A DNA stretch of 64,000 nucleotides from Methylocapsa sp. D3K7 (GTDB lineage: Bacteria > Pseudomonadota > Alphaproteobacteria > Rhizobiales > Beijerinckiaceae): assembly GCF_029855125.1 (NCBI RefSeq), contig NZ_CP123229.1, forward strand, positions 744,001 through 808,000, read 5' to 3'. A program made the position numbers and the translations under genes. The notes beneath the pieces are model-generated. The model was not told where the DNA came from. It did no database searches and saw nothing but the letters and a program-made list of their open reading frames with translations. This document shows, piece by piece, positions 3,993 to 23,547 of this stretch (positions are counted from its first letter, which is position 1; each line of letters begins with the position of its first letter).

Positions 3993-4201
3993 GCTCACCT
4001 CGATCCGTGTCTTACCTGCCACGCCTTCCCGAAAAAGCTACAATGCAACGAAACTTGTGTTGCGAGGCTTGCCAAAGCCTTTAAAAACAACGCGTGGTAA
4101 TCGTTGAGCGTGTGTTACCAAAACCGGTAAAAGAATCCGCATCAACCAATTAACGCCACAAATATAACCTTAGTCTTCGCGAAATGGGAGCCGGTCTTAC
4201 G

Positions 4202-6646
4202 ATGCGAGTTCAGCGTGTGTTCAGAGGCCGGGTCGCGGTAGCGATGGTCGTATTGGCTTGGCTGGCTGGCGGTACTTTCGCCGCATTTGCCGAAGGTGTT
4301 TCCGTCCAAGGGAACAAACGCGTCGATAGCGAGACGATCAGTGCCTATTTCACAGGTTCGGATCAGGTCGCCATCAATAAGGGCGTCAAGGACCTCTATG
4401 CCACGGGGCTGTTTTCCGACATCCGCGTGAGCAGGGCCGGTGGCCGGATCATCATTAGCGTAACTGAAAACAACGTCATCAACCGGGTTGCGTTCGAAGG
4501 CAACAGCAAGGTCAAGACGGAAACGCTGACCTCCGAAGTTCAATCGAAATCGCGCGGACCTTACAGCCAGGCCATGGTCGATGCGGACATCGAACGCATC
4601 AAGGATGTTTATCGCCGTTCGGGCCGCGCCGCCGCCACCGTCACCGCGCGGACGGTTGATCTGCCCAACGGCAGGATCGACGTGGTGTTCACCATTGACG
4701 AAGGCGACAAGACAGGCGTGAAGGCGATCAATTTTGTCGGCAATACGGTCTACTCTTCCGGCAAGCTCCGCGATCTGATGGACACGACGGAGATGAATTA
4801 CTTCTCATTCTTCAAAACGTCGGACGTTTACGACCCCGACAGGATTGCCTCAGACCTCGAGCGTATTCGCCGGTTCTATCTCAAGAACGGTTACGCGGAT
4901 TTCCGTGTGATCGGTTCCGACGCTCAGTTCGACGCCGAGCAAGGCGGTTACATCGTCACGATCACGGTGGAGGAAGGCGTTCAATACACGGTGGCGACGG
5001 TCAATGTGGAATCACATTTGCCGGACATCGATGGCGCTTCGCTGCTCCCTCTCGTGCGTCTCTCGGCCGGCGACGTCTATAATGGCGACATGGTCGAAAA
5101 GACCGTTGATGCCCTCACCAAGGAAGTGGGCAAGCATGGCTATCCATTCACCCAAGTCCGGCCTCGCGGCGACCGCGATCCCGCCACGCGCACCGTCACC
5201 ATAGCCTTCGTCTTGGAGGACGGCCCGCGGGTGTACGTCGAGCGCATCGATGTGCGCGGAAATACCAGGACGCGTGACTATGTTATCCGGCGCGAATTTG
5301 AAATCGGCGAAGGCGATGCCTATAACCGGGTGTACATCGACCGGGCGGAACGACGGCTCAACAATCTCGGCTATTTCAAAAAGGTCAAGATCACCAACGA
5401 ACCCGGATCGACGCCCGATCGGGTGATCGTGGTCGTCGATGTCGAAGATCAGCCGACCGGATCGTTATCGCTGTCCGGCGGTTATTCGACTTCCGACGGC
5501 TTCATCGCCGATGTCGCCGTCACCGAAACAAACTTCATGGGCCGCGGCCAATATGTGAAGCTGGCGGTTTCCGAGGGGCAGTACAGCCGCGGCGTCAATT
5601 TCAGTTTCACCGAGCCCTATTTTCTCGGGGAACGGCTCGCGGCGGGCTTCGACGTTTACGCGAAAAAGAGCGATGCTTGGCAATATTCCTACTACAACAA
5701 CTTCGTAACGGGAGCGACTCTGCGCCTCGGCTTGCCCGTAACGGAAGAAATCTCCTTCTCGCCAAGATATTCGATTTACCGCACCGACATCTCCATTCCC
5801 AACAATTCCGGGCGCCCATACAACGATTGTACCAATCCAATTTTTGGAACGACGCCAGGATTCAACGGCGCAACCCCGAGCATTTATTACAACTGCTTGA
5901 CGAATGGCGAAGCTTCCTTGGCGCTCAAGGAAGCCCAGGGTCCATTCCTCACCTCGATGGTCGGCTACACGCTTGGCTATAACTCACTTGACAACAATAG
6001 GAGCCCGACGGCTGGCATCTTCGCCGAATTGCGCCAGGATATCGCTGGCGCCGGAGGCGACACACGCTTCGTCCGCACCACCGGCGATATTCGCTATTAC
6101 CACGAGTTATACGATCAATTCGTTGGGCTCGTGCATCTGCAAGGCGGCGATCTGGCGAGCTTTGGCGGCAGCCAAATCCGTATCGTTGACAATTTCAACT
6201 TGGGGCCAAGCCTCGTTCGCGGATTTGCGCCAAGCGGTATTGGCCCGCGCGATATCAGCTCTGGCAATCCCCAGGGCAATCCGCTCGGCGGCACGGTATA
6301 TTTCGGCGCCAGCGCGGAGGTGCAGTTTCCGATCTTCGGCCTGCCTCGGGATCTTGGCCTGAAGGGCGCCCTCTTCGTCGATGCGGGAACTTTGTATGGC
6401 TTTAATGGCCGGACCAATTTCAGTCCGACCGGTGTTTGCTCGGGTGGCCCATTTGTCGCGCCCTTCTCGCAAAGCAATTGCATCACCGTCGGCGGCGACA
6501 CGGCAACGATTCGGACCGCCGCCGGCGGATCGATCATCTGGGCATCGCCGCTTGGGCCGATACGGTTCGATTTCGCCAAGGCCATCACTAAGAACCAATT
6601 TGATCAAACTCAATTCTTCCGTTTCACCGGCGGCACCACGTTCTGA
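4202..6646 (+). CDS. bamA: Outer-membrane protein assembly factor BamA
   Basis: Central component of the BAM complex that folds and inserts beta-barrel proteins into the outer membrane. The start at 4202 is preferred because a GGGAG lies about 11 bases upstream, and it gives a standard signal peptide (basic N-terminus, hydrophobic core, AFA cleavage site). After it come about five POTRA repeats (roughly residues 25-420), recognisable by recurring ...VRGN-TR... and RxFYxxxGY-type blocks. A C-terminal 16-strand barrel follows, ending in aromatic FRFTGGTTF with the terminal Phe recognised by the BAM machinery. The length of 814 residues is normal. About 140 bp separate it from lpxD. Confidence 0.96.
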   Translation: MRVQRVFRGRVAVAMVVLAWLAGGTFAAFAEGVSVQGNKRVDSETISAYFTGSDQVAINKGVKDLYATGLFSDIRVSRAGGRIIISVTENNVINRVAFEGNSKVKTETLTSEVQSKSRGPYSQAMVDADIERIKDVYRRSGRAAATVTARTVDLPNGRIDVVFTIDEGDKTGVKAINFVGNTVYSSGKLRDLMDTTEMNYFSFFKTSDVYDPDRIASDLERIRRFYLKNGYADFRVIGSDAQFDAEQGGYIVTITVEEGVQYTVATVNVESHLPDIDGASLLPLVRLSAGDVYNGDMVEKTVDALTKEVGKHGYPFTQVRPRGDRDPATRTVTIAFVLEDGPRVYVERIDVRGNTRTRDYVIRREFEIGEGDAYNRVYIDRAERRLNNLGYFKKVKITNEPGSTPDRVIVVVDVEDQPTGSLSLSGGYSTSDGFIADVAVTETNFMGRGQYVKLAVSEGQYSRGVNFSFTEPYFLGERLAAGFDVYAKKSDAWQYSYYNNFVTGATLRLGLPVTEEISFSPRYSIYRTDISIPNNSGRPYNDCTNPIFGTTPGFNGATPSIYYNCLTNGEASLALKEAQGPFLTSMVGYTLGYNSLDNNRSPTAGIFAELRQDIAGAGGDTRFVRTTGDIRYYHELYDQFVGLVHLQGGDLASFGGSQIRIVDNFNLGPSLVRGFAPSGIGPRDISSGNPQGNPLGGTVYFGASAEVQFPIFGLPRDLGLKGALFVDAGTLYGFNGRTNFSPTGVCSGGPFVAPFSQSNCITVGGDTATIRTAAGGSIIWASPLGPIRFDFAKAITKNQFDQTQFFRFTGGTTF

Positions 6647-6787: not shown

Positions 6788-7648
6788 ATGAGCGAGCCTT
6801 CTTTTTTTCCCCCCGCCACGCCACTTTTGCTCAGCGATATCGTGGCTTGCACGGGTGCGGGGGTGGTTGAGAATGCCGATTTGTCGGTCATGATCAGCGG
6901 GGCCGCAGCGATCGACGAGGCTGGCCCTGGGGAATTCACTTTTTGTGATTCTCCCGAAAATGCCGAGCTTTTGGAGATGAGCCGCGCCACCGCCTGCTTT
7001 GTCACGCCGGGTGAGGCACGGCGCTTGCCAAAAACGGCGTTGGCACTCGTGGTGGACGACCCCTATCTCAGCTACGTCCTTGCCTTGCAGCGGATGTTTC
7101 CGCAAGCGATCCGGCCAAAATCCGTTTGCGGTACTTCGGGAATCAATCCAGGGGCCTCGATCCATCCGGAAGCCCGGCTCGAACAAGGCGTGATTGTCGA
7201 TCCCGGCGTGATCATTGGGCCGCGCGCGGAAATCGGGTCTGGTTCGATCATTGGCGCGAACAGTGTGATCGGGTCTGGCGTCCGGGTCGGCCGCGATTGC
7301 CTAATTGGGCCGCAAGTCACCTTGGCCCATGCGCTGATCGGCAATAGGGTCATTCTGCATACCGGCACCCGCATCGGCCAGTATGGTATCGATTTCCGCC
7401 ACGCGAGAGCCGCCATCACAGCACCCAGGATTGGCCGGGTGATTATTCAAGACGGCGTCGAAATCGGCGCCAATGCGACGGTCGATCGCGGCGCAACGGG
7501 CGATACCGTCATTGGGGAAGAAACACGAATCGGCAATCTCGCCCGGATCGCGGAAAACGTCGCGATTGGACGCCATTGCGTTGTCTGCGCGCAGACAGGT
7601 CTCTCCGCCGGGGCGCGCCTTGAAGATTTTGCTACATTTGGCCAGTGA
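6788..7648 (+). CDS. lpxD: LpxD-like acyltransferase, C-terminally truncated and lacking the catalytic His
   Basis: Homologue of UDP-3-O-acylglucosamine N-acyltransferase, the third step of lipid A synthesis. Visible features are an N-terminal uridine-binding-like domain (to about residue 105) and left-handed beta-helix hexapeptide repeats from about 118 to 285 (IGPRAEIG, IGANSVIG and so on). At 286 residues it is about 55 short of the usual 340-350. It ends in the helix and so lacks the final coils and the C-terminal helices. The catalytic histidine of E. coli LpxD (His239 in the IAHNV motif) aligns with Glu256 here (IAENV). The second histidine of the site (E. coli His276) lies in the missing part. 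Other frames after the stop do not restore the lost region. It could be a decaying gene, with a working lpxD elsewhere, or a repurposed helix protein. Confidence 0.8.
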   Translation: MSEPSFFPPATPLLLSDIVACTGAGVVENADLSVMISGAAAIDEAGPGEFTFCDSPENAELLEMSRATACFVTPGEARRLPKTALALVVDDPYLSYVLALQRMFPQAIRPKSVCGTSGINPGASIHPEARLEQGVIVDPGVIIGPRAEIGSGSIIGANSVIGSGVRVGRDCLIGPQVTLAHALIGNRVILHTGTRIGQYGIDFRHARAAITAPRIGRVIIQDGVEIGANATVDRGATGDTVIGEETRIGNLARIAENVAIGRHCVVCAQTGLSAGARLEDFATFGQ

Positions 7649-7705: not shown

Positions 7706-8176
7706 ATGAGCGACATGGCGCCGGCAACGATCGAGAGTTTCGACATTCTGCGTTTGTTGAAATCCCTGCCCCATCGCTATCCCTTTCTCATGATCGACCG
7801 GGTGATCGAAGCGCGGGGCGATGAATTTGGCATCGGCATCAAGAATGTCAGCATCAATGAGCCGCAATTCCAGGGGCATTTCCCGGAGCGTCCGGTCATG
7901 CCCGGCGTTCTTCTGATCGAGGGCATGGCGCAAACTGCGGGGGTTTTGTGCGTCAACGCGCATTCCCCCGGTAAGCCGCCCCCGCTCGTCTATTTCATGA
8001 GCATCGACAAGGCGAGGTTTCGCAAGCCGGTTCTACCGGGCGACCGGGTCGAGTTTCACATGACCAAGACCAACCGGCGCCGCACTATGTGGTGGTACCA
8101 GGGCCGCGCCTTCGTCGATGGCGTGCTCGTGTGCGAGGCAGAGATCGCCGCCATGCTGGCAGATGGCAGTGCGTAA
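7706..8176 (+). CDS. fabZ: 3-hydroxyacyl-[ACP] dehydratase FabZ
   Basis: Dehydrates 3-hydroxyacyl-ACP in fatty-acid elongation and so competes with lipid A synthesis for 3-hydroxymyristoyl-ACP. The 156-residue hot-dog-fold protein has the catalytic His in [11 protein letters not shown] and the catalytic Glu in [11 protein letters not shown]. Both are intact, unlike the neighbouring LpxD. A GGGAG Shine-Dalgarno precedes the ATG. In most proteobacteria lpxA follows immediately; here a methyltransferase gene does. Confidence 0.95.
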
Positions 8177-8279: not shown

Positions 8280-8954
8280 GTGAGAACCAAGGGCAAAAAC
8301 TTCAGTGCCGCGAAGGACCTTCAAAACGTCACGGCAGACACGCGGTTTGGTACCATCCTCGCCGACCCGCCCTGGCGCTTCCAAAACAAAACCGGCAAAG
8401 TCGCGCCCGAGCATCGGCGCCTGTCCCGCTACGCCACCATGACGCTCGATGAGATTTGCGCGCTGCCGGTAATGGGGATAGCGGCGCCAACTGCGCATCT
8501 TTATTTGTGGTGCCCGAACGCGCTGTTGCCAGATGGGCTCCGTGTCATGGCCGCATGGGGCTTTACTTACAAAGCCAATATTATCTGGCACAAAATCCGC
8601 AAAGACGGCGGGTCAGACGGCCGCGGCGTCGGCTTTTATTTTCGCAACGTCACCGAAGTGATTCTGTTCGGCACAAGGGGAAAAGGCGCTCGGACCCTGG
8701 CCCCCGGCCGGTCCCAGGTGAATTATCTGGCGACCAGGAAACGCGAGCACTCGCGCAAACCGGACGAGCAATATCCGCTTATTGAATCCTGTTCGCCAGG
8801 CCCCTATCTGGAGTTGTTCGGCCGGGGTGTCCGCCCGAACTGGGTAACTTGGGGCGATCAAGCGAATGAGTCTTATGCGCCCGCGTGGAAGACCTACGCT
8901 CATAATTCCGTATCGGAACGTGGAAAAGCGGTCGAAGCGGAGAAAAGGATCTAG
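8280..8954 (+). CDS. MT-A70 family adenine N6-methyltransferase
   Basis: S-adenosylmethionine-dependent methyltransferase of the MT-A70 family, whose bacterial members mostly methylate adenine in DNA. The 224-residue product starts at GTG 8280. It carries ADPPW at residues 28-32 (the DPPW catalytic motif), followed by typical family blocks (HLYLWCPNALLPDGL, WHKIRKDGG). The C-terminal part has KPDEQYPLIE and YLELFGR, also usual for the family. No restriction endonuclease gene is adjacent, so it looks like an orphan enzyme. It sits where lpxA normally lies, between fabZ and a quinone reductase gene that follows after only six bases. Substrate and biological role cannot be read from the sequence. 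Confidence 0.85.
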   Translation: MRTKGKNFSAAKDLQNVTADTRFGTILADPPWRFQNKTGKVAPEHRRLSRYATMTLDEICALPVMGIAAPTAHLYLWCPNALLPDGLRVMAAWGFTYKANIIWHKIRKDGGSDGRGVGFYFRNVTEVILFGTRGKGARTLAPGRSQVNYLATRKREHSRKPDEQYPLIESCSPGPYLELFGRGVRPNWVTWGDQANESYAPAWKTYAHNSVSERGKAVEAEKRI

Positions 8955-8960
8955 GACATC

Positions 8961-9935
8961 ATGACCAAGACTATCCGTGTGCATGAGACTGGCGGCCCGG
9001 AGGTCATGAGGATCGAGGACATAGAACTGCCCTCCCCCTTACGCGGTCAGGTGCGTGTCCGCCATCATGCGATAGGCGTCAATTTCATCGACATTTATTT
9101 TCGTAGCGGGGTTTATCCCGTGCCCTCGCTGCCTTTTACACCCGGCAATGAGGGCGCTGGGGAAATCGTCGCCCTCGGCGCGGGTGTCAAAGATTTCAAG
9201 CTTGGTGACCGGGTCGCTTATGTCTCGACCCTGGGTGCCTACGCCGGAGAGCGGCTGATCGCGGCGGACCGTCTCGTTAAATTGCCGAAGAGCATTTCCT
9301 ACGAGACAGCAGCAGCGATGATGCTGAAGGGCCTCACCGCGCAATATCTGCTGCGCCAGACGTTTAAGGTGAAGCCGGGCAACACCGTTTTGATTCAAGC
9401 GGCGGCGGGTGGCGTCGGCCTGATCCTCTGCCAATGGGCGAAAGCGCTCGGCGCAACAGTGATCGGGACGGTTGGCTCGCCCGAAAAAGCCAAACTCGCC
9501 AAGAAGGCGGGAGCCAAGCATGTCATCCTCTACCGCGAGGAAGACTTTGCCGCGCGCGTCAAGGAGATCACCAAGGGAAAACTCTGCGACGTGGTTTATG
9601 ACGGCGTCGGCAAAGCGACCTTTCCGGCTGCGCTCGATTGCCTGCGGCCGTATGGACTATTCGTGAGCTTTGGCTCGGCCTCGGGGCAAATCGAAGCCTT
9701 CAATCTGGGGCTTCTGTCAACGAAAGGCTCCCTCTACGCCACCCGCCCGTCCCTCCACACCTATTCGGCGAAACGTGAGGATCTCGAAAAAATGGCGCAT
9801 GACCTATTCCGCGTGGTGTCGAGCGGCGCCGTGAAAATTCCACTGCACCGGACGTGGCCGCTCGAGGATGTCGTCGATGTTCATCGGGCGCTCGAAAACC
9901 GCGAGACAACCGGCGCGACCGTGCTCATTCCATAA
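8961..9935 (+). CDS. Zinc-independent quinone oxidoreductase (QorA-type MDR)
   Basis: NADPH:quinone oxidoreductase of the medium-chain dehydrogenase/reductase superfamily. The 324-residue protein has the N-terminal GroES-like domain (HAIGVNFIDIYFRSGVYP, PFTPGNEGAGEIVALG) and the nucleotide-binding GVGL-type motif (AAAGGVGLILCQWAKALGA). It lacks the cysteine zinc ligands of alcohol dehydrogenases, consistent with the quinone reductase branch. It starts six bases after the MT-A70 stop, so the two are probably co-transcribed. The physiological substrate is not evident. Confidence 0.9.
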   Translation: MTKTIRVHETGGPEVMRIEDIELPSPLRGQVRVRHHAIGVNFIDIYFRSGVYPVPSLPFTPGNEGAGEIVALGAGVKDFKLGDRVAYVSTLGAYAGERLIAADRLVKLPKSISYETAAAMMLKGLTAQYLLRQTFKVKPGNTVLIQAAAGGVGLILCQWAKALGATVIGTVGSPEKAKLAKKAGAKHVILYREEDFAARVKEITKGKLCDVVYDGVGKATFPAALDCLRPYGLFVSFGSASGQIEAFNLGLLSTKGSLYATRPSLHTYSAKREDLEKMAHDLFRVVSSGAVKIPLHRTWPLEDVVDVHRALENRETTGATVLIP

Positions 9936-22356: not shown

Positions 22357-23547
22357 ATGCCAAAGAGGTCCTTGGACGCGTTCGCATTCCGCAAATTGGA
22401 AGCTCTCGATCGCGCCAGTCTCAAGCGCTCCCTCACCGAGAGCGTTCGCGAAAGCGGGATCTGGGTCGAGCGCGACGGCCGCCGCCTGCTCTCTTTCTCC
22501 TGCAATGATTATCTCAACCTTTGCCACCACCCGGCGCTCATCGCCGCCGCCACGGCGGCGATCCGCCAATATGGCGTGGGCGCCGGCGCTTCCCGGCTTG
22601 TCACTGGGAATCATCCCTTATTTGGGGATCTTGAGACGCGTCTCGCGCGGCTCAAGGGAACCGACGCCGCCTGCGTGTTCGGTTCTGGCTATCTCGCCAA
22701 CAGCGGCATCATACCGGTGCTTGCCGGCGAGCGGGATCTGGTTTTGATCGATGAGCTGGCGCACGCATGCCTCTGGGCTGGAACAAAATTGGCGGCGGCT
22801 GAAACGTTGATCTTCCGCCACAATCAAGTTGACCATGCGGCTGAGTTGCTCGCCAAAAGCCGGGGGCGTTTCCGGCATGCGCTGCTTGTCACAGATAGCG
22901 TTTTTTCCATGGACGGCGATCTTGCCCCTTTGCAAGAGCTGAGCAAAATCTGCGTGGATTTCGATACATGGCTGATGACCGATGACGCACATGGTTTGGG
23001 CGTCCTCGGCGGCGGTCGCGGCGCTATTTTTACCGCGGGTCCCGGCGTGGATGTGCCGTTGCAAATGGGAACCTTATCCAAGGCGGCAGGCGGCTATGGC
23101 GGCTATTTGTGCGCATCGCGGCCCGTCATCGATTTGGTGAAAACCCGCGCCCGTACCCTGATTTACTCGACCGCCCTCCCACCCCCGATGGCGGCGGCGG
23201 CAATCGCGGCGCTGACAATTATTGAAACCGAACCTGAATTGACCGCAAAACCTCTCGAAAAGGCGAAGTTGTTCACCTCCCTTCTCGGCCTTTCCAAGGC
23301 CCAAAGTCCGATCGTCCCCCTCATCCTGGGGGAACCAGACGCCGCCCTGCGAGCAGCGCGTGGACTGGCTGACCAGGGGTTCCTGGTCACTCCGATCCGG
23401 CCCCCGACGGTTCCGACAGGCACCGCACGGTTGCGCTTCACCTTTACCGCCATGCACCCGGACGAAGAGATTGTTCGCCTCGCCGATGCCGTGCGCGCGT
23501 TGACGGAAACACTCAAAGGCCCGACCAAATGTCCGCCGTCTTCATAA
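22357..23547 (+). CDS. bioF: 8-amino-7-oxononanoate synthase BioF
   Basis: PLP enzyme condensing pimeloyl-ACP/CoA with alanine in biotin synthesis. The 396-residue product (ATG 22357 after GAGAG; an upstream in-frame ATG at 22321 lacks a ribosome site) shows SCNDYLNL, YGVGAGASRLVTGNHPLF, the Asp of MTDDAHGLGVLG and the PLP lysine in GTLSKAAGGYGG. Its 3' end overlaps bioD by 19 bases, so the two are translationally coupled. bioA and bioB are not in the window. Confidence 0.94.
   Translation: MPKRSLDAFAFRKLEALDRASLKRSLTESVRESGIWVERDGRRLLSFSCNDYLNLCHHPALIAAATAAIRQYGVGAGASRLVTGNHPLFGDLETRLARLKGTDAACVFGSGYLANSGIIPVLAGERDLVLIDELAHACLWAGTKLAAAETLIFRHNQVDHAAELLAKSRGRFRHALLVTDSVFSMDGDLAPLQELSKICVDFDTWLMTDDAHGLGVLGGGRGAIFTAGPGVDVPLQMGTLSKAAGGYGGYLCASRPVIDLVKTRARTLIYSTALPPPMAAAAIAALTIIETEPELTAKPLEKAKLFTSLLGLSKAQSPIVPLILGEPDAALRAARGLADQGFLVTPIRPPTVPTGTARLRFTFTAMHPDEEIVRLADAVRALTETLKGPTKCPPSS

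Follow-up and report, generated by a model that had tools for sequence, protein, structure and literature searches.

The 286-codon gene at positions 6788-7648 (+) of the window, by which we mean the whole stretch of 64,000 nucleotides that was analysed, is probably a pseudoenzyme derived from LpxD (UDP-3-O-(3-hydroxyacyl)glucosamine N-acyltransferase) which selection has maintained for something other than catalysis, in a lineage where lipid A is no longer made. Its descent is shared with LpxD and it occupies the same gene place; the catalytic motif is missing while purifying selection acts on the protein sequence. We favour the pseudoenzyme reading because the catalyst, the docking end and residues of the N-domain have been lost, yet selection persists without the pathway.

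The gene is a single open frame flanked by bamA (4184..6646, +) and fabZ (7706..8176, +), both of which are intact by profile match, as a preliminary description of this DNA had stated. Its 286-residue product matches the LpxD profile NF002060 with 261 bits (cut-off 207) and PF04613 with 62 bits (cut-off 30.8), the latter as an N-terminal domain at residues 34-101 (6887..7090, +), and the hexapeptide repeats match PF00132. With the equivalog profile TIGR01853 it scores 223.5 bits, under the cut-off of 242.5, and the match stops at model position 256 of 325. Solved structures of LpxD include those from P. aeruginosa (3pmo and 6uec), E. coli (3eh0) and C. trachomatis (2iu8). The conserved N and Y of the LpxD N-domain, which presumably bind uridine, are Ser55 and Asn58 here. 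The near-invariant Asp of the IDN motif, which has a catalytic role, is replaced by Gly249 (7532..7534, +). Glu256 (7553..7555, +) stands where the catalytic histidine is expected, a residue whose E. coli equivalent is His239. The preliminary description had already called the protein an LpxD homologue without this histidine, and the alignment bears it out, with Glu256 falling on His242 of P. aeruginosa LpxD (3pmo). In that enzyme, according to passages of PMC6820557, His242 is the catalytic histidine and the C-terminal ACP-recognition part is the ARD. The stop codon of the window gene (7646..7648, +) comes early enough to remove the end of the helix as well as the C-terminal ACP-recognition helices. 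A shortening by about 55 residues had been proposed; the shortening stands but its size is larger, 59-78 residues when measured against 20 LpxC-positive homologues of the family (345-364 aa).

Alignment of relatives at the histidine position, as had been proposed earlier, shows the same kind of loss across nearly all of the genus (g1). An lpxD-like gene is present in 15 of 15 genus genomes, with no stop within the match in any, and 14 of them have E, A, P, G or S instead of the histidine. The remaining copy, in G587 (L135, 12465-13325, −), keeps both the Asp and the His and is truncated at its end like that of the window, perhaps as an intermediate stage. A sequencing error, which had been raised as a way to restore the His codon and the C-terminus, is excluded by this distribution and by the short end common to near kin. 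An assembly error was likewise rejected: G172 and G585 have the same Glu and end similarly early (296 and 292 aa), yet many synonymous changes separate them from the window. The observation made on the lpxD gene, Glu256 together with a missing C-terminus, is therefore real and confirmed.

Conservation was scored at 84 columns where at least 95% of 32 homologues, each LpxC-positive or bearing lpxA/lpxB, agree. The LpxC-less side consisted of 15 proteins, a set without the mostly intact G021 and G061, the fragments G125 and G165, the histidine-keeping G191 and G136, and G584-G588. This set keeps 38 of the 84 near-invariant columns in at least 14 of its 15 proteins (37 of 58 up to residue 248), and what is kept in the LpxC-less proteins comprises helix glycines and hydrophobics, the RG and DT.GE places, R169, R217, Q221, E244 and R262. 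The catalytic His and Y58 are kept in none of the 15, the IDN Asp and N55 in one each; in the GQDGFGFA loop D199 is kept in two, F201 in one and G202 in two. H209 is retained in 0/15 and K211 in 2/15, and the second conserved C-terminal His is kept in two and gapped in eight. The ACP-docking end is absent in the window protein, its near kin, g4 and g36. Across the LpxC-less species the place of the catalytic histidine holds E, A, P, G, S, R or C; a conserved Glu acting as a new catalyst was rejected on this variation.

At the level of the locus, bamA lies directly 5' of lpxD in all 25 loci compared, and lpxD stands between bamA and fabZ in every g1 locus that reaches far enough. Two LpxC-positive loci of g22 (G116 and G092) show the order cdsA-dxr-rseP-bamA-lpxD-fabZ-lpxA-(gene or genes)-lpxB-qor, in which the quinone reductase gene qor is 3' of lpxB. 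In the window, lpxA and lpxB are absent 3' of fabZ and an MT-A70 methyltransferase gene and a quinone reductase gene are found there, as previously described. The MT-A70 gene (8280..8954, +), whose product has no NCBIfam match at E 0.001, stands where the lpxA-lpxB stretch was lost, as it does in G172, G585 and G587, and qor follows at 8961..9935 (+). None of the 14 g1 loci examined contains lpxA or lpxB; qor is downstream of fabZ in 12 of them, with no qor within the stretch taken from G198 and with bamA and lpxD alone in that from G586. Three g36 loci have qor after fabZ, and in both g4 loci lpxD is still 3' of bamA, with neither fabZ nor qor seen. An apparent retention of lpxI in g22 was rejected since the reading seems antisense to another gene, and we make no claim about LpxI.

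Calculation of dN/dS, another check suggested at the outset, indicates purifying selection on lpxD. Pairwise omega is 0.129-0.261 in g1 and g4, 0.197 in g22 and 0.452 in g36, all of them pairs from LpxC-less groups, and 0.142 in one LpxC-positive pair; bootstrapping of eight g1/g4 pairs gave upper 95% limits of 0.183-0.359. Pairs among G000 (the window's genome), G172 and G585 have omega of 0.17-0.26, none with an upper limit above 0.35, and because the Glu is common to all three, these genomes very probably split after the loss of the histidine. Values for BamA, dxr and FabZ are 0.039-0.147, save for a single, hardly diverged pair (0.008 and 0.198). Constraint on lpxD is relaxed: when one pair with a nearly unchanged BamA is set aside, its omega exceeds that of bamA by a factor of 1.4 to 3.4, and it reaches 0.452 in the g36 pair.

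This relaxation, the eroding active site and C-terminus and an in-frame TGA within the LpxD match of the g36 fragment G125 are what would be expected if the gene were a functionless relic, slowly decaying and open by chance. We regard such a relic as improbable, because the constraint seen among G000, G172 and G585 very probably postdates the loss of the histidine, and because all 15 genus copies are open where a neutral simulation predicts about 4 to 10 stops per copy. In that simulation, a simple equal-rates model run at the observed dS in four sets of 1000 runs, a stop-free frame was left in 0.9%, 2.7%, 0 and 0 of the 1000 copies of each set. Constraint is most evident in a 32-residue block, GRVIIQD..VEIGAN..DRG...DTVIGE (codons at 7433..7528, +), which in 7 of 7 pairs has the lowest dN among the four regions compared. 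Since dS in the block amounts to 0.64-0.99 of the gene-wide value, the constraint is on the protein. The steady position of lpxD between bamA and fabZ in g1 could also reflect conservation at the nucleotide level, with the gene serving as a leader, promoter or coupling element for fabZ. This has very little to recommend it, given the dS of the block and the fact that g4 keeps the gene although no fabZ follows.

The genome of the window is a single contig of 4,151,390 bp, rated 99.5% complete. The proposed search for a second lpxD was carried out over the whole genome and returned one PF04613 match, the 6788-7648 gene itself; an intact second lpxD elsewhere is thus rejected. Profile searches of the same genome found no LpxC, no LpxB and no LpxA over the cut-off, the best LpxA match in a search that covered this genome alone being the lpxD-like gene (49 bits against a cut-off of 231). 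On these grounds the genome very probably makes no lipid A, judged from its gene content, and it presents the gene pattern of a lipid A-free Gram-negative, namely absence of LpxA, LpxC and LpxB from a complete genome. The earlier suggestion of lipid A genes elsewhere and a decaying copy here finds no support in these searches or in the purifying selection on the only LpxD. The suggestion that lipid A synthesis is unusual in this lineage holds: LpxC and LpxB are absent from all 10 genus genomes searched, in which assembly gaps were rejected as the cause since five of the 10 consist of one to three contigs and are 99-100% complete.

Of 30 genomes examined, 27 have LptD, among them all 10 of g1 and both of g4; no match came from G031, G178 and G191. 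In the window's genome LptD lies at L121 7772-10804 (C1:3278571-3281603), beside SurA-like, PdxA and rRNA-dimethylase genes. Its retention, and the chance that plasmids are absent from the assembly, would suit a continued synthesis of lipid A by genes too divergent to be matched or on a replicon missing from the assemblies. We consider this very unlikely, because LpxC and LpxB are absent from the well-assembled g1 genomes as well as from the others, and the same search detects LpxC in 172 of 199 family genomes (0 of 10 in g1 of that draw). It is very likely, as far as genes can tell, that the outer membrane of this group is without lipid A but with LptD kept, and therefore another lipid may use that machinery.

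LpxD was found in 192 of the 199 family genomes, and in every one of the 172 whose completeness is 90% or more. Seventeen genomes of that completeness are without LpxC, two of which, G023 and G031, hold lpxA and lpxB, so that the missing LpxC match is probably an assembly gap. The other 15 are also without LpxB and all keep LpxD, in each case beside bamA; the histidine is gone in 14 of them and kept in G061. G061, G136 and G191 retain the LpxD histidine though LpxC and LpxB were not found in them. One g36 genome, G035, gave two weak LpxC matches (best E 1.9e-45), perhaps a remnant LpxC, with no LpxB and an eroded LpxD.

Retention of lpxD after the loss of lpxC is not the usual outcome, since it is seen in 15/15 of these family genomes versus 5/48 in the rest of the class (nominal Fisher p 1.3e-10, with relatives not independent). 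The class-wide draw consisted of genomes at least 95% complete, 340 of 389 with LpxC; its 48 LpxC-less genomes outside the family comprise 19 that were listed and 29 deduced from gaps in the numbering. PF04613 matched in eight of the 48, five of them LpxD with the histidine present in all, and three below the cut-off, which we take to be MurE-like proteins. No LpxD was found in the other 43, which again speaks against a relic in our family.

The number of losses was estimated on a BamA tree of 41 rows, from which G102 and G031 (short BamA) were left out; G584-G587 were labelled LpxC-less by kinship (and by locus except for G586) rather than by an LpxC search, and G023 was labelled LpxC-positive. 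The LpxC label needs three changes on this tree and the histidine label four, or six losses by hand count if it was never regained. A single clade for all LpxC-less genomes is rejected (AU p 6e-53), and a single clade of g1, g4 and g36 is compatible with the tree (p 0.495). Because the LpxC-less family genomes are not one clade, the lipid A pathway was lost at least twice in the family, unless regained, and the loss of lipid A itself looks like at least two separate events.

Genes that could supply other outer-membrane lipids are candidates in a group at C1:2760695-2771278 (L120 1896-12479). This group holds genes for a ketoacyl synthase, a MaoC-type dehydratase, an SDR reductase and a family-2 glycosyltransferase, a desaturase with a sphingolipid Delta4-desaturase N-domain (PF08557, 35.9 bits against 23), a 404-aa protein with a GNAT hint under the cut-off, an oxoamine synthase, an OlsA-like acyltransferase (204 of 300 bits) and OlsB (338 of 320). 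Among solved structures the oxoamine synthase comes nearest to a serine palmitoyltransferase (216 bits), followed by 2-amino-3-ketobutyrate ligase (207). The NCBIfam models, in contrast, place it closer to BioF (344 of 426) than to serine palmitoyltransferase (298 of 500), with neither cut-off reached, and for this reason a sphingolipid in place of lipid A is a lead and not a result. A BioF-like gene with a partial domain lies in the window at 22486-23493 (410 bits against a cut-off of 426), and the PF00155 matches of the genome include two oxoamine synthases besides it, one of them a 5-aminolevulinate synthase. Hopanoids are another candidate replacement for lipid A, Beijerinckia and Methylocella being reported to make them in the portion of PMC12583986 seen.

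The acyl transfers that the oxoamine-synthase and ornithine-lipid gene group would need, and the purifying selection, raise the alternative that the window protein retains enzymatic activity, now directed to a different acceptor, such as the amine of a sphingoid or ornithine lipid, and using another catalytic residue. We think this unlikely. No common new catalyst occupies the variable histidine place, nearly all 15 proteins have lost the N and Y of their N-domain together with most of the loop on the acceptor side, the ACP-docking end has gone from the window, its near kin, g4 and g36, and the ornithine-lipid genes bring their own acyltransferases, OlsB and the OlsA-like protein.

A new use for the helix fold had been offered as one possibility in the preliminary description; it is the best remaining reading, and what that use might be we infer as follows. 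As a pseudoenzyme, the protein would still form the homotrimeric left-handed beta-helix of the LpxD type and could act as a scaffold or adaptor through R169, R217, Q221, E244 and R262, polar residues that are conserved in the family with or without lipid A synthesis and are assumed to lie at the surface. The role would most plausibly be in envelope or fatty-acid homeostasis, beside bamA. It seems plausible that lpxA, lpxB and lpxC were lost first and that the active site then eroded separately in several lineages, while the scaffold role held the rest of the protein. Several facts count against the pseudoenzyme reading: constraint is relaxed, the G125 fragment has its in-frame TGA, g4 is without fabZ or qor at the site, so that the neighbourhood hints at little beyond bamA, and the histidine loss is not universal, the residue being kept in G587, G061, G136 and G191. 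The keeping of a dead LpxD without lipid A suggests a second job of the protein. Tentatively, and with somewhat less confidence than would be needed to prefer it, LpxD may have a second, non-enzymatic envelope job in this family, independent of lipid A, which alone kept the gene after the loss. If true, that job can be studied apart from the essential role of the enzyme. The retention of LpxD without the rest of the pathway also opens two questions to testing, namely why so many bacteria need lipid A and whether its enzymes have structural duties besides catalysis.

Named kin of the window's genome are the Methylocapsa MAG bog_942 and the MAG USCa_AHI, which marks the organism, a soil bacterium, as a Methylocapsa-like alphaproteobacterium. 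The latter is presumably the Canadian high-Arctic MAG AHI that an extract of PMC10672854 places in a clade of USC-alpha methanotrophs, and the group probably includes atmospheric methane oxidisers as USC-alpha kin. Among the titles and abstract openings listed from open-licence literature, none mentions lipid A loss in Methylocella, Methylocapsa or Beijerinckia or an LpxD pseudoenzyme, and in the part of PMC9145241 seen, LPS is named solely in the abbreviation list of a legend. A survey of 61 genomes reports, in the text excerpted from PMC3087551, that LpxA and LpxD always occur together or are missing together. The window's genome, with LpxD but without LpxA, is an exception to this rule, and the whole genus and its neighbours keep LpxD without LpxC and LpxB.

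Among known systems, active LpxD shares with the window protein the PF04613 N-domain, the hexapeptide beta-helix repeats and the place between bamA and fabZ. The window protein differs in having neither the catalytic His, the IDN Asp, the N and Y of the N-domain nor the C-terminal ACP-recognition helices, and in coming from a genome where LpxA, LpxC and LpxB were not found. LpxA is a related beta-helix acyltransferase, which residues 137-285 of the window protein match weakly (62.9 bits against a cut-off of 231); unlike LpxA, however, the protein has the LpxD N-domain and occupies the lpxD place. Sphingomonas is described, in the passages seen of PMC10964400, as a Gram-negative naturally without lipid A. 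The likeness lies in the absent lipid A pathway, here judged from genes, and in a gene group with a serine-palmitoyltransferase-like enzyme; the difference lies in LpxD, which is retained here and is absent from 43 of the 48 LpxC-less class genomes outside the family, a set that may include Sphingomonads. A general parallel is with pseudoenzymes as outlined in the excerpt of PMC10211241, where, as in the window protein, the fold family is kept, the catalytic motif is gone and selection goes on.
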